From Methanosarcina acetivorans C2A (GTDB lineage: Archaea > Halobacteriota > Methanosarcinia > Methanosarcinales > Methanosarcinaceae), in contig NC_003552.1 of the NCBI RefSeq assembly GCF_000007345.1, positions 1,860,001-1,924,000 on the forward strand: a stretch of 64,000 nucleotides of DNA. Direction: 5' to 3'. Position 1 is the first letter of the stretch. Each line of letters opens with the position of its first letter. The notes below the pieces were generated by a model that searched no databases, was not told where the DNA came from, and was given only the letters and a program-made list of their open reading frames with translations. Shown piece after piece: positions 4,176 to 62,770 of the stretch. Position numbers and translations under genes: made by a program.

Positions 4176-4306
4176 GAGCTGATCACAAAACTCAAAAATC
4201 GCTTCGTTGAATCTCGATATTGGAATAATCAATCGAGCTATTGATTACGAAAGTAGTTATGAAACTCTTATGCATGTGGAAATAATATTGTTTTTGGGAT
4301 AGGCTC
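4176..4306. mobile_element. MITE-like element, family 2, copy A (131 bp)
   Basis: Left end GAGCTGATCACAAAAC and right end (inverted) GAGCCTATCCCAAAAAC form imperfect terminal inverted repeats, and CTC flanks both sides (4173-4175, 4307-4309), a candidate 3-bp target duplication. The left 45 bp align closely with the element at 35009-35136. The 3855-4175 region before it holds short direct repeats of TTTTCAGATGAT just after the stop of the upstream gene and otherwise nothing recognisable. The element ends 33 bp before the start codon of the second YdjM paralogue, so it may supply part of its leader. Confidence 0.7.
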
Positions 4307-32185: not shown

Positions 32186-33801
32186 CTATTTACCCCCTGT
32201 AGTGTTTGTCTTTTATGCAGGTGCCGAGATCAGATATAAAATTAGTCCAAAAACAATAGAAACAATAATTCCCTCATAAATATTACTCATATCTGTTTCT
32301 TAAAAATGAGGAGTTAAGCTCTTCATATGTATCAATTTCAGTCTTTTATATTCCCCTCGCTCAGAAAATCACATATATACGCAGGCCTTCTGTGGACTAC
32401 CTGATACAGCTTCCCAGTAATCGCTGCCTTTTAGGGTGTATTTTATGGAGTTCGTATGGTACGGGAAATACTTTTGAACTCAATAAATTCCTTTTATCTA
32501 ACTCCTTATAAGTTTTCTGGTCATATCATCAAACTATTCGTTATTCATACCTGTTTTGAGTCTGCAATTTTTCCCTGAGCATTGACTATTGGACTATTTG
32601 GCTAGAAATAATATATATGAGTACTCAACTGATGTCATATTCTGTATTTTTTATAAATATTCGAAGTAGCACGAAATAAAATATACCAAGTCAATACTTG
32701 TATCGGTTTATACTTGAGTTCCAAAATATTAAGCGCATATCCATGTTTCCACAAATCTGTGATGTCATTTGACTACGGTTTTAGAACTTGAAACTGAGTA
32801 TTATGTGGTTAAGGTTAAGCACGTAATTTGGCATCAAGCGGCTTTTGTGTGCCAAAAATCCGGAACTCAGGTTTATAGTATTCTTGAACTACTTAAAGTC
32901 CCACATAAAGTCCCAAGACTGTGAAATTACATCAAGGCTGGTACAATTTCACTCCGCTTTCCCCTCGGCGGTAAAACAAACGACAACAACTTCAAAATTT
33001 GGTAAAATATAAGGTTGGGACATATCCGACCTTATTAAAGCAAAATATTCTTAATAAAATTATATAACGATCAATATATTCAATAACGGAAATTACAATT
33101 ACCTAAGGTAATTGTCGGACAACCTGTTTAGGGTGGGGTGGCCGCCCGCAATTTGATTTAATTTTAAGATAGCCTCTTAGAGGTAATACAATAATAATCT
33201 TTCAAAAAATAATAGCTATGTATTATTTGATAAGTATATTTGTCAATATATTTTCGATTATGGGGAGTTATCATATCTCTACCTTAACCGCCTTCGTTAA
33301 CATTAAGCGAAAAAAGCTGGATATTTCAATAAAAGCGGGATTTAAGGAAATGGCAACTTCTCAGGCGGCAGGGGATTTTTTTATAAGTTATTACACATTC
33401 GGCATGCCATCTGAAGATATTGGAAGTACGCAGGTTCTCTAAACCTGACTTTCTTTATATCTCTACTTTATAACTTTCGCTAAAAACGAAAAAGCTTTAA
33501 TCTAAAAGAAAGTTAGTACTTAACATTAGTTGCCAGGAATCTCTGGATATTTTCTGTAAGGTACATGACAACACCTTGGTTTTCTATCCTGATCCGCCCG
33601 GATTTATTTTTAGCTGGCAGCAGTCGTAACATTTTGCAAGATTGTCAATTCTCAAAAAATGTAAAATACGAGGATCGATCGTTTTTAAGGATTTATTCCT
33701 AAAAACAGTAGCACCAGTAAAAAAAGTACGATATCCGGTAAAAAAGTACACTAATTTAGGCATTACTAAGTTAGAGGAAGAGAATTTTTGAGGGAATAGT
33801 T
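32186..33801. other. 1.6-kb AT-rich region without a supported gene
   Basis: A perfect 8-bp hairpin CAATTACC-TAA-GGTAATTG lies at 33096-33114, enclosed by GGTTGGGACATATCCGACC (about 33013) and TGTCGGACAACC (about 33112), which are partly complementary and may bound a degraded element. A 74-codon frame at 33218-33442 has no ribosome site and no recognisable product. The last about 250 bases (33530-33801) are homologous to the region before the second chagasin-like gene (38830-39089) and should contain its promoter. Confidence 0.45.
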
Positions 33802-34374
33802 ATGAAGAAAATTTTAAAGTTGATGGCAATGCTTCTGGTCATTGCCGCTGTTGTCTTTGCAGCCGGCTGTACCGAAGAGGCAGGGCCTGCAGAAAATGAA
33901 ACTCCGGAAGATTCCGAACAGGTTCCGCCTGTAACACCTGAAACTTCCAACATGGCAGACGAAAGTGTTACCGAAAATAACACAGCTGAAAATGGCATAG
34001 CTGAAAATGACATAACTGAAAATGACACAGCTGAATTTGATGAGACCGTGGAAACAGGACAGGTAGTAACCGAAGCTGACAACGGGACAAGCATAAGTCT
34101 CAACAATGGAGAGAATTTTACCCTCCAGCTCAGTGGAAACCCCACTACAGGTTATTCCTGGGAACTCAACGTGAGCGAGGGACTCAATATTCTCAGTGAA
34201 GATTATACTCAGGATGCAGTTCCTGAAGAATCTACCGGTGTTCCCGGAACTTATACCTGGATAATTCAGGCCGTGGATCAGGGCACCCAGCAGGTAAACG
34301 GCGAATATATACGACTCTGGGAGAATGCAACCGGGCCTGAGGATAACTTTACACTCACTGTTGAGGTTGCCTGA
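33802..34374 (+). CDS. Chagasin-type (I42) cysteine protease inhibitor lipoprotein, paralogue 1
   Basis: 190 residues. Lipoprotein signal peptide with lipobox FAAGC (Cys23), then an acidic low-complexity linker (about 24-85) with repeated TENN/AENG/TEND units, then a chagasin-like beta-sandwich. The three inhibitor loops are recognisable: NPTTGYSW (113-120), a Gly-rich GVPGTYTW loop, and RLWE in place of the usual RPW. It probably inhibits papain-type proteases outside the membrane, although the cognate protease is not in this window. GAGGG nine bases before the ATG supports the start. A close paralogue lies at 39090. Confidence 0.9.
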   Translation: MKKILKLMAMLLVIAAVVFAAGCTEEAGPAENETPEDSEQVPPVTPETSNMADESVTENNTAENGIAENDITENDTAEFDETVETGQVVTEADNGTSISLNNGENFTLQLSGNPTTGYSWELNVSEGLNILSEDYTQDAVPEESTGVPGTYTWIIQAVDQGTQQVNGEYIRLWENATGPEDNFTLTVEVA

Positions 34375-34500
34375 GAGGCATTTTTGTTTCTCAGGTTTTT
34401 TACTTTTTTACTTCTTTATTTGACTTTCTTGTGGGGTCGGAGGCTTTTCAGGTTGCAGGAGTTTTTTAAGAGAGGACTTTTAGGTTATGTTTAGCTACTG

Positions 34501-34626
34501 CGATTCTGTTCCAGTGCTGTATGGATGACCTCGCTTACTTCCTGAGGTGAGATCGCCTTTTATATTCACGTTTGTGGGGTATGTTTTTCATGTGAAAATA
34601 ATTATACTTCATTTTATTATATTAGA
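34501..34626 (-). pseudogene. Relic of the 96-residue protein gene (5' part and leader only)
   Basis: Read on the minus strand this stretch aligns with the start of the genes at 38487 and 41419 (KGDFTPQEVSEVIRAALEQN region) and with their leader (TTCATTTTATTATA), but has lost two bases inside the FTPQ codons and the ATG region, and homology stops near codon 30. It lies just after the first chagasin-like gene, as an intact copy lies next to the second. Confidence 0.6.
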
Positions 34627-34667
34627 ACTTACGCAGTTGAAGGTTTAATTGTGCACTTTTGCAACTA

Positions 34668-35448
34668 CTACTCTCGGAGTACAATTCCAAGCATAGGGTT
34701 GAATACTTCTAACCTTAACTTCCATTTTTTTGTAGGGAATATGTTAAATTTAAGAGCTTTATTTGATTCTTTTACTTTCTTAGGAACTTCAGTAATGATA
34801 CTTTTTTCACCAAAATTTATGTTTTTCACTTTTCTAAACTTCAATAGGCTATCAATAGGTGAGAACTTATTATTTATCTCTGCTTTTTTAATTGCCTTCA
34901 ACAATTTGCGGTACGCATATATGAAAGAAATGCCACAAACACATGTCCATAAACGCTCTGATCCTCATGAAGATACAACATATCAGCATCTAATGTTGTT
35001 TTGTATATGAGCTAATCCCAAAACTCAAAATTTGCTTCTTTGGATCTCATATTTAAGCTACATATCTAGCCTCGTTTATGAAACAATCCTGAATAATCCT
35101 GGGTAATTAGATAAAACTGGGTTTTGGGATGAGCTCTATGTCAAACAACTTTTCATAGAGTCTTTTTTTGAAGAGTTCATACATCTCCTTTTTTCCGATG
35201 TCGTAATTGGAGATAATCAAGAACTTCCCTGCTCTATTTTGTTTTAAAGAGTATTCTTCATCACTGATCTTCCCTTCCTCTCTCTTTCTGAAGATCGTCT
35301 TCTGTTCTTCAAGTCTTAGGTCCAGGTCTTCATATAAATATAGGAACAAATATGGGAACCTATTTCCTAACTCTCTTTTACCACATTTGATGAGTCTATC
35401 ATGACAGACGAATTCTTCATTAAGGTGTATTCTTGTGTTTCCGTCCGG
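34668..35448 (-). pseudogene. Transposase relic (IS4/IS1634-like C-terminal part), disrupted
   Basis: On the minus strand the frame runs from 35448 (PDGNTRIHLNEEF...) through FRKREEGKISDEEY and GKFLIISNYDIGKKEMYELF up to KLFDI, where a 128-bp inverted-repeat element (35009-35136) is inserted; it resumes as YKTTLDADMLYLHEDQSVYGHVF, which is the expected continuation. A frameshift then follows near 34915 and the end reads KAIKKAEINNKFSPIDSLLKFRKVKNI to a stop at about 34668. The pattern (a GKFLIISN strand, then a Glu/aromatic helix before HEDQSVYGHVFVAFLS) is that of IS4-superfamily transposases. The N-terminal half and the ends of the element are missing. Confidence 0.7.
35009..35136. mobile_element. 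MITE-like element, family 2, copy B (128 bp), inserted in the transposase relic
   Basis: Ends GAGCTAATCCCAAAAC and, inverted, GAGCTCATCCCAAAAC: a 16-bp inverted repeat with one mismatch. Flanks carry TAT on both sides (35006-35008, 35137-35139), and removing the element with one TAT restores the transposase reading frame exactly. This is good evidence for a real transposition event. The internal sequence matches copy A at 4176. Confidence 0.85.
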
Positions 35449-35450
35449 TT

Positions 35451-35498
35451 TTGCATATTGTGAAAGTTACAGTGGGTAACCACTTTTCGGATAGGTTC
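35451..35498. mobile_element. Right half of a family 1 MITE
   Basis: TTGCATATTGTGAAAGTTAC through CACTTTTCGGATAGGTTC aligns with the right half of the 539-670 element (GCATATTGCCAATTG... CACTTTTCGGATAGGCTC). The left half is absent; the fragment abuts the broken upstream edge of the transposase relic, so the two were probably joined by a later deletion. Confidence 0.7.
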
Positions 35499-36426
35499 TA
35501 AATAGTAGGGGCTCTGAATGCTTGCCGGGAGTGTGCTCAGTTCTCTTATTGAGCATCGTTTTCTTTTTAAACTGTGACCCTGAAAGTGCGTTTCGAGGAT
35601 TTTCCCACTTATATGCGCTCAAAGACGATCTCCATCCGGACTTTGTATATTTTGTAATTAAAAGAATAGTCGTAAAGCTTCTTTCGGAATTTTCCAGGAA
35701 GGCAAAAATACAGCTTGTAGGTGTAGGGGGTTAGTAATCTTAGGGAAATAGACAGGAAGCAGATGCTTATTACGGATTTTTTAAACTGGTCCCGGTTAGA
35801 AGATTTAGAAAAGAGTTTATAATTTATGATTCTTTTAAGTCCTCGTTGATGGAACGAAATCAGGAATATTAGATTCTTCCCATAAAATATTGCGGCATGG
35901 ATATCTTTTTAATTAAATCGATATCATTTATGCCTCTTGACAACTTATTTGAAACCGAAGATTTTACAGAACTAAATTTTACTCTAAAAATCAGCAAACT
36001 TTAACTTATAGAACCTGCTACTAATTGATTTTAATCCTTAACTCCAATGTTTTGTGGGGATATAGAGATCTTATCAAGAAGATGGTAGTTTTCAACTACA
36101 AGTGCCTCAATGACAAAAGTTCTATAAATTGATTCCTAAATTCTTTACATAGCTTTCAAAAACTCAATGATTAAATTAGAACAGTAATAGCTTAATGCAG
36201 ACCAAAACTGAAGGGAAATAATTGTTTAAATTGTTTACTTTCTTTAGTATCTTCTAAGCTTAGTGTAATCTTCAAGTTTACGAAAACTGTATATTCAATA
36301 TATTGAAAATTAATTTGTTTTCAAATGTGATAAACTTGATTATAACAAAAATACATATTTAATATATTCCCTACAAAAAATCGGAGTTAAGGTTTAATAT
36401 TAATGCACTGAGGTCACGGACTAACC
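35499..36426. other. Intergenic region before the ABC exporter
   Basis: A 70-codon frame at 35522-35734 has no ribosome site and I do not recognise it. A perfect 14-bp palindrome TTCAATATATTGAA (36294-36307) lies about 120 bp before the ABC ATPase gene and could be an operator. ACATATTTAATATATT (about 36352) is a plausible TATA region. Confidence 0.4.
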
Positions 36427-37383
36427 ATGAAAGCAATTGAAGTATCTCATCTCATTAAAAAATTTGGCTCCCTTACTGCTCTCAATGACATCAGTTTCTC
36501 AGTCGGTGAAGGAGAAACTTTCGGGTTTTTGGGTCCCAATGGTGCCGGCAAGACAACTACTATTCGTATTTTGACAGGAGTATCAAGACCTACTTCCGGA
36601 ACTGCAACCATTTTTGGTCATGATGTTAAACACGACACCATTGCTGCAAGGCAGTCTGTAGGCATTGTTTCTGAAAATTCAAACGTGTACGATGACCTGA
36701 CCGCCTGGCAGAACCTGATGTTTTCAGCTGAACTCTACCATGTAGGACGAAAAGAGCGAGAAAAAAAAGCTAACGAACTGCTCAGGAAGTTTGAATTATA
36801 CGAACGGCGTAATGACAAAGTTCAGGGTTTTTCAAAAGGAATGAAAAGGCGTCTGACGCTTGCTATGGGCATGGTCAATAGTCCTCGTCTGATATTTTTG
36901 GATGAGCCGACCTCAGGGCTCGATGTACAGAGCAATCTTATCATCCGGGAAGTGATCTCAGGTCTGGTCCGCGAAGGTGTCACTGTTTTCTTAACAACTC
37001 ATAATATTGAGGAGGCAAATGTTATGTGTGACAGGGTAGCAATTATCAATAAAGGAAATATCGTTGCAGTCGATACACCTGAATCGTTGAAAAGGACAAT
37101 TCGGAGTGTTCAGTCGATAGAAGTTGCTTTTGATAATAATTCTATTGATCATCTCGAAGAACTCAGCCGCCTTCCAATGATAAACGAAGTTCACAAAGCA
37201 GGTGACAAATTTAAGATCTTTACCGAACTTCCATCTGAAGTTATTGATGCTCTGGTTGTTTATGCCCACTCTTATAACTTAAAAATTCTCAGTATAGCAA
37301 CTCCCGGTCCGAGTCTTGAGGATGTATTTGTAAGGTTAACCGGTCTTCAACGGGCAGGTGATGGAATTCATGCCATCGATTGA
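36427..37383 (+). CDS. ABC transporter ATP-binding protein (ABC-2 type exporter)
   Basis: 318 residues. It energises export by the adjacent permease. Walker A GPNGAGKTT (about 38-46), Q-loop/D-loop region, signature FSKGMKRRL (about 138), Walker B LIFLDEPTSGLD (about 160) and switch His in LTTHNIEEA (about 194) are all intact. A C-terminal DUF4162-like domain follows from about residue 225. This layout is typical of CcmA/NatA-type drug or ion exporters; the substrate is unknown. GAGGTCA lies before the ATG. The 3' end overlaps the permease start by 14 bases. Confidence 0.95.
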   Translation: MKAIEVSHLIKKFGSLTALNDISFSVGEGETFGFLGPNGAGKTTTIRILTGVSRPTSGTATIFGHDVKHDTIAARQSVGIVSENSNVYDDLTAWQNLMFSAELYHVGRKEREKKANELLRKFELYERRNDKVQGFSKGMKRRLTLAMGMVNSPRLIFLDEPTSGLDVQSNLIIREVISGLVREGVTVFLTTHNIEEANVMCDRVAIINKGNIVAVDTPESLKRTIRSVQSIEVAFDNNSIDHLEELSRLPMINEVHKAGDKFKIFTELPSEVIDALVVYAHSYNLKILSIATPGPSLEDVFVRLTGLQRAGDGIHAID

Positions 37384-38137
37384 GCATAAAGGATGGACAA
37401 AGCACTTATCTCGGGAAATGAACGGTGCATGGGCAATCGCCAAAAAGGATATGAGAATCTACTACTTCAGGTCCAATATCATAGTTTCCGGCATACTCTT
37501 TCCTCTTTTTATGTTCCTATCTTTTGCTATTGGGAAGAATGCCCCCCCAAAAACACTGGTACCCGGATTGATTTCAATCACTTTACTGTTTTCTGCTTCA
37601 CAAATAGAGCCGGTTTCATTAACTCTTGAGCGGCGCGTAAAGACTTTTGAACGCTTGCTCTCAGCACCTATTTCCCTGAACTCAATGATTTTCGGGGAGA
37701 GCATCAGCGGGTTTCTCTACAGTCTCGTCATTGCGTTATTACCGCTTGTTGTCGGCATCTTCATATTCGATACGCAGATAGTAAATGCACCTATCCTTGT
37801 TATTTCCATGATTCTCACATCGTTCTGTTTTGCTATGCTTGGGACGCTATTTGCTGCGTACCCCACCGAGACTGCGGGCGAGGTCATGGCAATTCTTAAT
37901 ACTGTCAGGCTACCGCTTATATTTATCTCCGGCATTTTCATTCCGATATCTTCTATGCCTCAGATAGGTCAGAAGATTGCACTGATATCCCCACTTACTT
38001 ATGGAAACGATATGATAGGATACGCATTTACGGGTAATTCACTGTTTTCTCCACTTATAGATATTTCAATGCTTGTGATATTCATTATAATCTTCCATCT
38101 GGCTACAAACTATATGTATAAAAATTTCAACGAGTGA
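37370..38137 (+). CDS. ABC-2 type transporter permease
   Basis: About 255 residues from MPSIEHKGW. This ATG is preceded by GGTGATGG at the proper distance, although in-frame GTG 37358 and ATG 37361 would also open the frame. It has six hydrophobic segments with a cytoplasmic amphipathic start (EMNGAWAIAKKDMRIYYFRSN) and the ABC-2 family stretch LPLIFISGIFIPISSMP near residue 185. It forms the membrane part of the exporter with the upstream ATPase; the overlapping frames indicate translational coupling. No substrate-specific accessory gene is nearby. Confidence 0.92.
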   Translation: MPSIEHKGWTKHLSREMNGAWAIAKKDMRIYYFRSNIIVSGILFPLFMFLSFAIGKNAPPKTLVPGLISITLLFSASQIEPVSLTLERRVKTFERLLSAPISLNSMIFGESISGFLYSLVIALLPLVVGIFIFDTQIVNAPILVISMILTSFCFAMLGTLFAAYPTETAGEVMAILNTVRLPLIFISGIFIPISSMPQIGQKIALISPLTYGNDMIGYAFTGNSLFSPLIDISMLVIFIIIFHLATNYMYKNFNE

Positions 38138-38399
38138 ACAACGTAACTGTATCTCTAAATTTTAATTAATACTAAAATAAAAATATATTAATTAAGTTGT
38201 TCACTGCAACTCAATACGGGGCAGGTAACCGTCACAATTCCGCGAGCACACAAAGCAAGAAGGAGAATTTTTCACGCATTGTGAAGTCATTGGACAGGCA
38301 TTTTAGATTTTCAGACCCATTTGTTTTAAAATACTGATAAACTGTTCAATTTGCTTTTTACCGCGGAAAGAACGGAAAAAACGGAAAAAACTTGCCTGT

Positions 38400-38560
38400 C
38401 AGGCTGTCTCAAAACTCAAACCATTTCTACAATTGGATAATGAGCAACGTTGAATTTAAAAACAAGACCACCTAAATTAGAAAAATTTATACATGAATTA
38501 ACCTTGTAGTAGAAAAATTTGACACAATTGTAGAATTAACTTTAGTTTTGAGACAGCCTG
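38400..38560. mobile_element. 161-bp inverted-repeat element with perfect 17-bp ends
   Basis: CAGGCTGTCTCAAAACT at 38400-38416 is repeated exactly inverted at 38544-38560. CTGT flanks both ends (38396-38399, 38561-38564), a candidate 4-bp target duplication. There is no coding capacity of its own. Its right part supplies the last about 25 codons of the truncated gene at 38487. It is a third inverted-repeat family, different from the GAGCC-ended ones. The 38138-38399 stretch before it is AT-rich with no gene. Confidence 0.8.
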
Positions 38561-38789: not shown

Positions 38790-39089
38790 ATCCCTTTCAC
38801 CAGATAGAAATTGTGCCTCATTTTATAATAAGGTGATTCAGGAACCGGCTCCGAAAATTACAAACAATACCTTCATTTTCCATCTTTGTCAGTCCGGATT
38901 TGTTTTTACCTTGTACTCAGTGTAAAAATTTTGCAAGAAATATTGGTTCTCAATAGGATACGGGATCAATTGTTCTTCAGGCTTTATTTTCAAAAACCGG
39001 TAATATCAGTAATGAAGTATATAATCAGTAAAAAATTACAATAAATCAGGCGCCATGAAATTAAAGAAGAGAAATTTGAGGGAATAGTT

Positions 39090-39632
39090 ATGACAAAAAT
39101 CTTAAAGTTAATGGCATTGCTACTTGCCATTGCTGCTGTTGTTTTTGCAGCCGGCTGTGCCGAAGATGCGGAGCCTGCGGAAAATGAAACTCCGGAAGAT
39201 TCCGAACAGGTTACGCCTGCAACACCGGAAACTTCTAACATGACAGACGAAAATGTTGCCGAAAATAACACAGCTGAAAACAACGCAACCGAAGCTAATG
39301 AAACCGTGGTAACAGGGCAGGTAGTAACCGAAGCCGACAATGGGACAAACATTAGTCTCAATAATGGAGAGAAGTTTACCCTTCAACTCAGGGGGAACCC
39401 CACTACAGGTTATTCCTGGCAACTCAACGTAAGCGAAGGGCTCAGTATTCTCAGTGAAGATCATACCCAGGACCCAGCTCCTGAAGGGTATACCGGTGTT
39501 TCCGGAATTTATACATGGGTAATTCAAGCCGTGGATACGGGCACCCAGCAGGTGAATGGAATATACAAGAGACTCTGGGAGAATACAACAGGCATGGAGG
39601 AGAATTTTACACTCATTGTCGAGGTCAGCTGA
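39090..39632 (+). CDS. Chagasin-type (I42) cysteine protease inhibitor lipoprotein, paralogue 2
   Basis: 180 residues. Lipobox FAAGC with Cys23, then an acidic linker ten residues shorter than in paralogue 1 (fewer AEN/TEN units), then the inhibitor domain with NPTTGYSW (103-110), GVSGIYTW and RLWE. Signal peptide, linker and domain are very similar to the copy at 33802, and about 250 bp of upstream DNA is also homologous, so the promoter was duplicated with the gene. GAGGG before the ATG is conserved. The target is presumably an extracytoplasmic papain-like protease. Confidence 0.9.
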   Translation: MTKILKLMALLLAIAAVVFAAGCAEDAEPAENETPEDSEQVTPATPETSNMTDENVAENNTAENNATEANETVVTGQVVTEADNGTNISLNNGEKFTLQLRGNPTTGYSWQLNVSEGLSILSEDHTQDPAPEGYTGVSGIYTWVIQAVDTGTQQVNGIYKRLWENTTGMEENFTLIVEVS

Positions 39633-40113: not shown

Positions 40114-40913
40114 TTTCGCTTCGGGAGCACGAGGTCCTTTTCGCTCCGCTTCGCTGCGCTCAAGAGGACTAATTTATAAACACTGTCTTTCGCACTTTCT
40201 ATGGTTTACAAGAAATAGTTTGCTTTTCTCTCTAATGTATATCGAAATTTAACCAAGATAGCATTCAGATTCAATACATTCTTTTCTTTTTAAGTATTAA
40301 GTCCTTTTTTACTACATTCCTATCAAAAAGTCTTTTCGTCTCCGGTTCTCCAGGCAGCCAGCAGGTAACCGACATATTCAAGAAATCTGGAACAAGCCGC
40401 ACAATTAAGAACTTTACACTTGCTGAGAGGTCGGCTGAATGGTATTTCCGCTTTTCAGATACCACAGGCATCTTTTTTCAATAGATTATTCTAAATGCCT
40501 CCGCAAGCTTTAATCCGCTGAAAATCCGAAAAATAGATAATTACAACCTTAACTCTCCATCGCTTAGGGAATAAACCAATTAGATGATTTTGTCTTTTGA
40601 TACCGTTTTTCTAACCGAGTTATGCATTTTTCTTCTCTCTGTTACTTTCAATTTCGCCAGAAATTTTTTATACATTTAGTAATATCTATTCTTTAGATGC
40701 CGAAAATTTTGTCTGAAACAAACTAAGAGATCTGGAGAAAACTTGTTCCCTATAGGGTATAAGTTTGAGTAATTTTTACGTTTTTGCTTATTTTTAAATT
40801 CGATACCTGTAGGCTCAAAGATCAATTTGTCACCTCTAGCTTCGGAGGAAATTGTCTGAAAAACTTCATACTGATTTTTGAAAATTCGGAATGAAACATG
40901 ATCAAGCCTGCTT
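40114..40913. other. Intergenic region with a terminator-like hairpin and possible coding debris
   Basis: At 40130-40172 GGTCCTTTTCGCTCCGCTTC and GCTGCGCTCAAGAGGACT fold back imperfectly, resembling a motif at 18428-18452. Between 40340 and 40480 the plus strand is open (reading SGSPGSQQVTDIFKKSG) without a start and may be debris of a lost gene. Nothing else is recognised. Confidence 0.35.
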
Positions 40914-41135
40914 TCGGCAGGTAACTTGTTTTTTTCGTAATATTTTTACTGATAGCGTTTTTGCTAGAAAACACATTATTCCTGATACTAGACATTATTG
41001 CAAAAACGACTCATTGTTTATATATGCCGTGAGATTTGGGTCATATGTTAACCAGTTTTGAACCCAACATATATTACATAATGTTTGAAAAACGCCATCA
41101 TTAAAAATACTTAAAATCTAATGTCGACCTGCCGA
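40914..41135. repeat. 222-bp element bounded by inverted TCGGCAGGT, copy 2
   Basis: Homologous over its full length to 28390-28612, with the same ends (TCGGCAGGTAACTTG and GTCGACCTGCCGA). Copy 2 lies about 280 bp downstream of a minus-strand gene (41419), as copy 1 lies about 110 bp downstream of the minus-strand UPF0228 gene. There is no open frame. The 41136-41418 remainder contains a GCCCGATATCTGCTC/GAGCATGCGGGC-type hairpin (about 41331-41365). Confidence 0.7.
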
Positions 41136-41418
41136 CTATAGGATCAAGAGCATTGTTCTCTGAAAAAGTTATTCCTTATTTGTGGCAGAGTTAAGGTTAC
41201 AAGTCAATAAAAATCATACTAGATCTTATATCGAGCATCCGTTCAGACTGGATTCCTCTGGCTCTTTCTGAAATAAACTAATATGCAGTCATTATATTAT
41301 CTTGCAGCTTCTTCTTTTTTGTCAGCGACCGCCCGATATCTGCTCACTTCGTGAGCATGCGGGCGTGGAGAGAAATTATTAAGCAAAGATTCTATTTTTA
41401 AATATTAATCTCTGAAAT

Positions 41419-50388: not shown

Positions 50389-50520
50389 ACCGGGGTTGGG
50401 ATGCCGAATCCGAAATCTGCCTGGTTCTCTGTACCTGTACGTTTAACACTACCATTTCTCTCTCTTCCGGGTCTGGAACCTGCAAAAAATTCAAAAATAG
50501 AAATTTTCGAGTTTTCTTCA

Positions 50521-50725
50521 ATCTTCTCTACTTTCCTCTACTCTTTTTCAATCTTCTCTACTTTCCTCTACTCTTTTTCAATTTTCTCTACTTTCCTCTA
50601 CTCTTTTTCAATCTTCTCTACTTTCCTCTACTCTTTTTCAATCTTCTCTTCTCTACTCTCCTCTACTCTTCTTCAATCCTCTCTACTCTCCTCTACTCTT
50701 CTTCAATCTTCTCTTCTTTCTCCAT
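50521..50725. repeat. 30-bp polypyrimidine tandem repeat, about seven copies
   Basis: Units start at 50521, 50551, 50581 and 50611 (30 bp each, first, second and fourth identical), then a 35-bp variant at 50641, another at 50676 and a partial at 50706. Each is built of CTTCTCTA and TTTCCTCTACTC. The plus strand is almost pure C/T. Open frames across it are composition artefacts. Confidence 0.9.
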
Positions 50726-51150
50726 GCTTTTTGAAGATGAATAAACTGCTGTTAGATGCATATGGTATGCCTGTTTCTGCGGAGCTATTATAAAGCCTGA
50801 ATACCGTACAACTCTAAAAAATAGTATGATTTAAAAGCAAGTAGAGTGTTAAGGATACAAAATATTATTAAACTCCAATATTATACTAATCCGAAATCCA
50901 GATTATACTGACCTGAACACTGGGCTGTATTAATAAAGTGGCATAACAAATTGACATGAAATTGTGCAATGACATTGAGTCATATAACTTGTACTGTTAA
51001 CAAATGCTACCGTGAAATTATGCAACAACATGAAATCGTGTAAACGTGAAACCTTGTAATAATCGTGTGATAAATTCTAACATGGAATTGGGTACTACTC
51101 AAAACCCGGTATCCGGATAATTCAAAATCATCAGAAACAGGAGCAATTTA
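50726..51150. other. AT-rich leader region of thrC with degenerate repeats
   Basis: Between about 50950 and 51085 the word ACATGAAATTGTGCAA recurs in degenerate form (ATGAAATTGTG, GTGAAATTATGCAACA, ATGAAATCGTGTAA). No gene is seen. The thrC promoter must lie here; CAGGAG at about 51138 is its ribosome site. Confidence 0.4.
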
Positions 51151-56400: not shown

Positions 56401-59400
56401 TTAATAGGACTCTTCTTCCTTCTCAAAGGACTTTAACACCTCAAGTTTTTCCTTTGCTCCTGCCATGTTCGGGTAGATGCTCAGGACCTCGTCGAAGGCT
56501 TTTATTGCTTCTCCGTATTTTTCCAGCTTTCCGAGGAGGACTCCTCTGTAGTTCATGGCCTGGGGGTCCTGCGGTTTTATCCTGAGAAGCTTTTCGAAGG
56601 CTTTCAGGGCATCTTCGTAATCCCCGGTTTTTGCAAGAGAGAGGCCGAGATATCTGAGGGAAGGTTCGTGCCAGGGGTTGATGGTGAGGGCTTCTTTAAA
56701 GGCTCTGGCTGCGGTCTCGTAGAGTTTCTGTTTGAAGCAGACCACTCCCACATTGTAGACCGCCTTGATGTTATTCGGGTCTTTTTTGAGCACATTGTCA
56801 AAGGACTTGAGGGCTTCCCTGTACTGCTCAAGCATGCAGAAGGCAACCCCTTTGTAGTTCATGGCGTCGTAGTTTTCAGGAGAGATCTCAAGGATGCGGT
56901 CAAAGTATCCGAGGGACTCCTGGATCCTGTTCAGCTTGATGAGGGTCGTGGCTGCGTTGTAAAGGGCCTCTTCGTTTTTGGGGTTGAAAAGGGCGGCTTT
57001 CTCGAAGGCTTTCAGGGCTTCTTTCAGGTCTTCAAGTTCAAGGAGGCAGAGCCCGAGGTAGTTCAGGCTTTCGGGGTCTTCGGGTGACGCTTCAAGCAGC
57101 TGTTCAAAGGTCCTGGCAGCTTCTTCATACTCTTCGAGATTGAAGAGCACGAGGGCCATGTTATAGAGGGCATCCCGGTGTGCAGGTTCGCGTTCAAGGA
57201 CAAGGTCCAGAGCCTGAAGGGCTCTTTCGTAGTCCTGAAGTTCTATGCTGGCGATCCCGAGCATGTAACAGGCTTTGGTGTAGTCCGGGAAGCCCGGGGC
57301 AAAGAGGAGCAGTCTCTCAAGGTCTTTTGAGGCTTCTTCGAAGTCAAGGAGCTTGTAACTGGCTACTGCCCGGCTGTAAAGGATATCAACATTTTCAGGG
57401 TTCAGGGCAAGGGCCGAACCGAAAGCGTCCCTGGCTTCTTCGTACCTGCACAGGGCAAGAAGGCCAAGTCCTTTCTGTTCAAGGGCAGCGGTCAGGGCAG
57501 GGTTGAGTTCCAGGGCTTTCTCGAAAACTTCCACTGCTTCTTCGTTCTGGTCAAGCCCGCGCATGACAAGCCCGCTCAGGTACCATACATCGGCATCCGT
57601 CGGATTTTTCTCAAGAATCTTTTCAAAGGTATCAAAGGCATCCTCATATCTCCGGGTTTTGAGCTGGGCAAGCCCTATTTTGGTCCAGGCGTCTTCCAGT
57701 TCCGGGTCACTTATTTTTGACTTCTCAATTTCCGATTCTTCAATTTTTGCCACTTCGTACGGGCTTTCCATCAAAGCCTGTTCGAAGGCTTCAAGGGCTT
57801 CATCGTATCGTTCCTGCGAAAACAGCACAAGGCCTTTCCCGTACCACGCTTTCTTAAAGTCCGGATAAACCTCAAGGATTTCGGAAAAGACCTCAAAGGC
57901 TTCTTCCTGCTTTCCAAGTCCCATAAGTGCTATCCCCGCGCTGTAAAAGGTTCCCTTTGAAGCTAAGCCTTCTCTTATGAGCTTTTCAAGCGGCAGCAGG
58001 GCTTCTTCATAGTGCCCGAGTTCTATCTGGGCGGATGCGAATTTCTCAAGGAGTTCAGGGCTGAACTGAGATTTTTCTCCTGGCTGTGGAGTTTCTCCTG
58101 GCTGTGGAGTTTCTTCTAGCTGTGGAGTTTCTTCTAGCTGTGGAGTTTCTTCTAGCTGTGGAGTTTCTTCTAGCTGTGGAGTTTCTCCTGGCTGTGGAGT
58201 TTCTCCCGTATCTCTATTTTCTCCTCCGGCTTCTTCGGGCAAATCCTGTACTATTTCTCTGGTCAGGTTTTCTGCGGAAAATTCAAGAAGGGAATTTACT
58301 GCGGATACGGCTTCTTCTGCCTTCCCCAGTTCGAAAAGGGCAAGAGCTCTCTTTTGCAGGATTTCCGGCTCCTGTATGCCTGCTCTAAGGACGATATCAA
58401 AGGCTTTTATGGCTCCTGCATAATCTCCAGTTTCGAAGCAGGAAAGCCCCGTATAATAGGAAATTTCAGGCTTCCGGCACCCGAGGTCAAAGGCTTTTTC
58501 AAACTCCTGCATTGCTTCTTTGAAGTTCCTGAGCCTGAAAAGGGCAAGAGCTCTCAGGTACTGCATATCTGCATTTTTGGGGGAATATTCCAGAGCTGCT
58601 TTAAAGGCTTCAGCTGCTTCTTCATACTTTTCGAGTTCGAAAAGCGTGTATCCTTTCTGGTCAAGGGCATATGTACAGTCAGGTTTCAGTTTAAGGACGA
58701 GGTCAAAGGCTTCCAGAGCCTCCAGGTTTTTCCCAAAGGCTTTTAAGGCGAGTCCCTTTCTGAAAAGGATAGTTTTTCTTGCCGGGTTCTGACTGAGCAC
58801 CCTCTCAAAGATCTCGAGGGCTTCTTTGTAATGCCCCTTCTTGAAACAGGCAGTGCTCAGGTGGGCAAGGGCTTCGGTATTTGCCGGGTCAAGGGCAAGC
58901 ACTTCCTTAAAGCCGGATTCAGCTTCCGCGTATCTCCCGAGCCTGAGCAGGGAGAGGCTCTTTTTATACATAATATCCTGGGCTTCGTCGGGGTTCCTCT
59001 CTGAATTTTCAGGAACTGTTGAAAGGGCTTCTTCAAAAGCTTTAAGGGCTTCTTCAAAGTTTCCGAGTTCAAAGCAGGAAAGCCCCAGCCTGTAATATAT
59101 GTCGTGAAGGTCCCGGAATGCCGGGTCGATTTCAAGGGCTTTCTTGAGGGCTTTTGAGGCTTCTTCATGTTTCCCGAGTTTTGAGCAGGACATCCCGATA
59201 AAATACCAGCCTTCCGCAAACTGCGGGTTCTGCTCGGTGAGCTTTGAAAAGATTTCAAGGGCCTTTTCATAAGCTTCCTGCCGGATAAACATAAGCCCCT
59301 TCCAGTAAAGAGGAGAGTCTTTATGAGAATTTTCGCTTTCTTCTCCACTTGCTTCTCCATTTTTAGCTTTTACTTCCTCGTTTATTCCCTCAAAAAGGGG

Positions 59401-62305: not shown

Positions 62306-62634
62306 AGTTAGACGTTTGCTGATACGTATTACTGATACATACTACTGATCCGCGTTACCGATAAATGTTACTAGTAAGTATTTACTGATAAATTTTCATT
62401 ACATTAAATATTTTTATATTTAATCTGTTTTATTAAGCCCGGCATCCTTTGTTAGGGTAGGATGTTACTGGATATTCGGAATTTGCTGTCATTATAATTT
62501 TTATTTAGAACCTATTTTTGTAACATACTATATAAATAATCTGCCAGAAGTGAGAGTGGGAGAAAACTTTTCCAATTGCTTTAATTGTTTACGGAGAATT
62601 TAAGCTATTTCTTCGAGGATAGTTTTACGTTACG

Positions 62635-62744
62635 AAATAATATCTAAAATAATATCTAAAATAATATCTAAAATAATATCTAAAATAATATCTAATATAA
62701 TATCTAAAATAGTATCTGAAATAATATCTGAAATAATATCTGAA
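62635..62744. repeat. 12-bp tandem repeat, about nine copies
   Basis: The unit AAATAATATCTA (later TGAAATAATATC) is repeated from 62635 to 62744, ending 27 bp before the stop codon end of the macro-domain gene. The sequence in between (62400-62634) is AT-rich without a gene. Confidence 0.9.
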
Positions 62745-62770
62745 AGGACATTCTAAATCCGAGTTATCTT

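Follow-up and report, generated by a model that had tools for sequence, protein, structure and literature searches.

Insertion sequences of the IS1634 family, which was split from IS4, are described in the relevant sections of PMC2266710 as elements of 1500–2000 bp with ends of the form C-----YT and AT-rich target duplications of 5–6 bp. The same sections report that the complete YREK motif is missing from most members, the arginine being present in five of 32. One peptide of an IS1634 transposase of Methanosarcina barkeri binds PCNA, according to the part of PMC4549789 that deals with it, so the family was already known in the genus. Titles and abstracts on Methanosarcina MITEs, insertion sequences and IS1634, covered incompletely, yielded no published description of the MITEs discussed below, and a word search of the main text of the MITE review PMC10969869 returned 0 occurrences of 'Methanosarcina'.

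Here we analyse a 64,000-nucleotide stretch of DNA from Methanosarcina acetivorans C2A, referred to as the window (G000:C1:1860001-1924000, where G000 is its own genome, a single contig of 5,751,492 bases). A sequence-only reading had described positions 34668–35498 as a MITE within a transposase relic, joined to half of another MITE. We found these parts where they had been placed, and the locus is almost certainly the layered, nested debris of ordinary DDE transposons. The observation was thus a correct one of an ordinary thing; its interpretation identified the parts correctly but was too definite about how they were ordered in time.

The 3′ end of an IS1634-family element

On the minus strand, positions 35439–34713 are what remains of an insertion sequence of the IS1634 family, namely its 3′ 37%. 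The relic retains 586 of 1566 element positions, including the real 3′ end at 34713 and the terminal region at 34713–34749 (minus strand; CCTTAACTTCC... in plus-strand orientation). Positions 34668–34712, which the earlier reading had included, are flank and not part of the relic. The coding remains (35439–35137 and 35008–34713) correspond to the C terminus of a 478-aa transposase, amino acids 285–476, to which three minus-strand pieces match (aa 285–382, 382–424 and 409–476). In the transposase alignment, the upstream part of the relic at 35140–35439 holds codons 285 to ~382, and the downstream part at 34713–35005 holds codons 383–476 together with the 3′ terminal repeat.

Because the relic pieces alone had no hits in Pfam, NCBIfam or the IS1634 model, the family was assigned through an intact relative. 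This relative (L011) scored 158 bits against the IS1634 model, for which the cut-off is 100, and the intact 478-aa transposase carries PF01609. The possibility raised with the earlier reading, that the restored sequence would belong to no transposase family, was looked at, and a transposase match was found, to IS1634.

Homologues of the relic were present in 7 of the 30 genus genomes searched, its own genome counted. The intact transposase that the sequence-only reading had proposed to look for in related genomes exists, open and full-length, in G007 and G018 of the same genus: long open frames with 82–83% identity occur at two places in G007 and in G018. G023 holds broken copies at 79–84% identity, and G011, G022 and G009 hold distant copies at 28–39%. 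In G007, one copy has a single 478-aa open frame, whereas that of the second copy falls into two pieces, of 216 and 259 aa. The two G007 elements measure 1566 and 1567 bp, have the ends CCTTAACTCC/GGAGTTAAGG and carry 6-bp repeats on both sides (TAAAAA at one copy, TTAATA at the other). At about 1.57 kb they lie within the 1500–2000 bp of the family, the relic itself being truncated; their ends fit C-----YT (CCTTAACT), and AT-rich duplications of the length described for IS1634 flank both copies. The open relatives differ in one respect from most IS1634 members as PMC2266710 presents them in those sections: by eye, the stretches YKKRDHVEKLFDAYK and YKRRDSIEKLFDAYK of their translations have the Y-(2)-R-(3)-E-(6)-K spacing complete. 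As read from these translations, the spacing goes against the majority pattern of the family and appears compatible with membership.

Unlike such elements, the copy in the window is a relic, its first 63% lost, its catalytic motif shortened, its frame shifted twice and its remaining part interrupted by a MITE. The 5′ truncation lies at 35439/35440, and with the upstream end lost the original target duplication is unreadable. One nucleotide is missing between 34922 and 34921, and one has been added to an A run close to the 3′ end. The loss of 3 nt between 35161 and 35160 brings R and E of the catalytic motif closer together, such that the region of the catalytic glutamate reads YKKRDHVEKLFDAYK in an open relative and FKKRLYEKLFDIYK in the relic across the MITE. 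The upstream part also contains a 12-bp in-frame tandem duplication at about 35336–35359.

Private changes in the relic were distributed 8:8:4 over codon positions 1:2:3 (n = 20 in about 586 aligned positions; the counts skip columns past a stop codon, and the true denominator is slightly below 586). Open-frame relatives showed an excess at third positions (16:9:32 in L011 and 6:3:20 in L012), and the departure of the relic from this pattern is as expected of a dead gene. These counts leave out row L161, which was in the wrong orientation and whose identity figure is void.

No intact copy of the relic's element was found in its own genome; the nearest relative there is a 521-aa transposase, present in three copies, with about 30% identity. 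A pattern scan of the genome contigs with a relic piece gave 143 hits, 0 of which were confirmed. A DNA match of 34707–34822 to C1:4125558 was considered as a second MITE and rejected, as it is the 3′ end of the relic's own insertion sequence.

A 128-bp MITE within the transposase frame

The interrupting element occupies 35009–35136 (plus strand), has the terminal repeats GAGCTNATCCCAAAAC and is flanked by TAT at 35006–35008 and at 35137–35139, the two copies of a 3-bp target duplication. It splits the transposase at codons 382/383. The splice made in the sequence-only reading, which took out the 128-bp element and one TAT, proved correct: with these 131 bp discounted, the frame runs from KLFDI into YKTTLDADMLYLHED.

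The element is short and multicopy, encodes no transposase, and has terminal inverted repeats and target-site duplications, all of which define it as a MITE. Its 15-base terminal-repeat pattern, with at most one mismatch, matched the genome 90 times (49 + 41) compared with 8 times for the reversed control. We counted at least 38 full-length copies of 125–134 bp in its own genome from 59 stretches, leaving out a split copy at C1:2191969 (L033) and dropping pairs outside 118–138 bp; the three closest copies are 93–96% identical to 35009–35136. A perfect 3-bp flanking repeat accompanied 23 of the 38 copies and was lacking in 15, whereas 2000 shuffles of left against right flanks gave 1.9 perfect repeats on average and never more than 7. 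Thus, the TAT at this copy is the normal duplication of the family and not a chance repeat. Copies of about equal length with GAGC ends also occur in other genomes of the genus, and the window has another complete member of the GAGCTNATCCC family at 4176–4306, with CTC on both sides.

In its length of about 130 bp, the absence of a transposase, terminal repeats that open with GAGC, target duplications of 3 bp, a genome copy number in the dozens and presence across the genus, the family resembles the MITEs of IS5-type elements. It differs from them in that our scans found no autonomous partner with its own repeats: of the 63 PF01609 matches, the 30 that were scanned at the DNA level included no such partner, and the stretches around the ends of this MITE held no clear autonomous element. 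A 1944-bp unit (C1:2191969-2193912) that encodes a 511-aa transposase, ends like a MITE and has a 3-bp duplication was rejected as the autonomous parent. Its 1817-bp inner part occurs elsewhere without MITE ends (99.6%), so the unit is another insertion sequence nested in a MITE copy (L033, G000:C1:2191969-2193912). At L206 (G000:C1:3671200-3676200), an element with a 521-aa transposase lies within a copy of this 1817-bp insertion sequence, with a 6-base overlap that resembles a target duplication.

The genome also contains an 869-bp element whose 271-aa transposase scored 252 bits against an IS5 model (cut-off 110), which places it in the IS5 family. Its terminal repeat, GAGCCTATCCGAAAAG, is similar to that of the 128-bp MITE but not identical, differing from several MITE ends (GAGCCTATCCCAAAA) at one base over 15, and it too makes 3-bp duplications. 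The GAGCTNATCCC family may have no matching autonomous element in this genome and may owe its mobility to cross-recognition by this resident element, although we regard this as doubtful.

A second MITE cut at the broken edge

Against the relic's broken edge, at 35440–35498 (plus strand), lies the right-hand part of another type of MITE, with the terminal repeat GAGCCTATCCGAAAAG. This 59-bp piece, cut at the edge, corresponds to positions ~65–131 of a family of 131-bp elements and lacks about 8 bp internally; TAA directly follows its right end. The type recurs in the 17 other places that were read, 16 of them in 15 loci of its own genome and one at 621–671 of the window. A copy of the type lies at 540–670, with GAGCCTATCCG-like ends and the flanks TAA and TTA.

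In this second type, unlike the first, the repeats match the resident IS5 element: the terminal 17 bp are common to the MITE and the 869-bp element. The edge piece could on that ground be read as the end of a full insertion sequence, which we consider highly improbable, as the 59 bp also match the inside of 131-bp MITE copies (93% to L041 and 96% to L040), whereas L041 itself matches the IS5 element only over the terminal 17–18 bp and in two 9-bp hits at chance level. The edge piece is best read as a MITE fragment. A comparison of the G007 element with the full window revealed no continuation of the IS1634 sequence beyond this fragment; apart from the relic, it returned only terminal matches within 36029–36395 and short weak hits. 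The deletion would therefore have extended beyond the insertion sequence or taken all of its upstream part.

Order of events

An IS1634-family element of about 1.57 kb was once present at this locus. The 128-bp MITE then inserted at codon 382/383, presumably moved in trans by a 3-bp-duplicating transposase, probably of the IS5 type. Separately, and in no fixed order relative to the MITE, the relic lost its 5′ 63%, presumably through a deletion with one end inside the second MITE, and small indels accumulated. Two of these relations are set by position: the insertion sequence came before the MITE because the MITE splits the transposase, and the second MITE came before the truncation because the truncation cuts it. 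The sequence-only reading had proposed the order transposase, MITE, then frameshift and deletion. Its first step is forced by the nesting, but placing frameshift and deletion after the MITE is not supported, as truncation, frameshifts and remaining lesions all lie at positions apart from the MITE, without overlap, and nesting does not order them.

Together with its duplication the MITE adds 131 bp and shifts the frame, enough alone to inactivate the protein, and its insertion may have killed the transposase, with the other lesions following, as originally proposed. We rate this below an even chance, since nesting does not require a MITE-first order and the private-change counts point, if weakly, in the opposite direction: relative to its three closest copies, private changes number 2 in the 128 bp of the MITE, compared with 20 in about 586 positions of the relic, without a third-position excess. 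The reverse order, with decay of the relic already under way when the MITE arrived, seems to us a roughly even proposition. The clock leans weakly towards it, but the difference is not significant (P = 0.14 for codon positions 1 + 2 and 0.22 for all positions), and the three closest copies stand in for the true parent of the MITE.

Neighbouring elements and the syntenic locus

Dating of the layers, also proposed with the earlier reading, did not succeed either through this clock (P about 0.14–0.22) or through synteny. The genome G006 matches the window at 36394–38151 (96%) and 35790–36035 (89%). On the left, the flanking sequence as far as 34421 has its G006 match about 9.8 kb further on; 34422–35789, which contains the relic, has no G006 counterpart between the flanks, and the syntenic locus gave no date. 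ABC-gene stretches from six other genus genomes and from a second locus in the same genome match G006 only over the ABC genes (7/7).

At 36036–36392 lies a non-autonomous element of 357 bp, which has terminal repeats of the IS1634 type and a perfect 6-bp duplication, TTTAAT. One of its ends is identical to the G007 element end (37/37). The syntenic site in G006, the nearest relative, lacks the element, its flanks meeting a few bases apart at the junction. Insertion after the split from G006 is the simplest reading; its loss from G006 through precise excision is a conceivable alternative. Sequences similar to the element occur in G002 (90%) and G023 (70–73%). The IS1634 ends at 34713 and 36392 face each other and were considered as the limits of a composite unit; this was rejected, as the outer flanks differ (TTCTAA vs TTTAAT) and 36036–36392 has its own duplication.

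Further along, a 650-bp MITE-like nested element (40547–41196) has the same kind of terminal repeat and a 6-bp duplication, TTACAA. It is split by a ~236-bp repeat that shares 95–100% identity with several further sites in the genome and, judging from this identity, was probably recently active. A 161-bp element at 38400–38560, with 36-nt inverted ends starting CAGGCTGTCTCAAAACT and no flanking repeat seen, is perhaps a further MITE. Similar lipoprotein-like genes at 33787–34299 and 39075–39557 (DNA 84–89% identical) stand on either side of an ABC transporter pair. Short-period tandem repeats occur at 50477–50751, 62613–62769 and 58056–58235, with 10/30-, 12- and 18-bp spacing, respectively. 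Rfam gave 0 matches in 34300–36500, and a promoter and terminator scan stayed near the shuffle expectation.

Discussion

The value of these results lies mainly in annotation: an IS1634-family relic and two MITE types are now named in a transposon-rich archaeal genome, and the element at 36036–36392 provides one clean insertion without counterpart in the nearest relative. For nested elements of this kind, reading an order from nesting alone is safe only for the host element preceding its guest.
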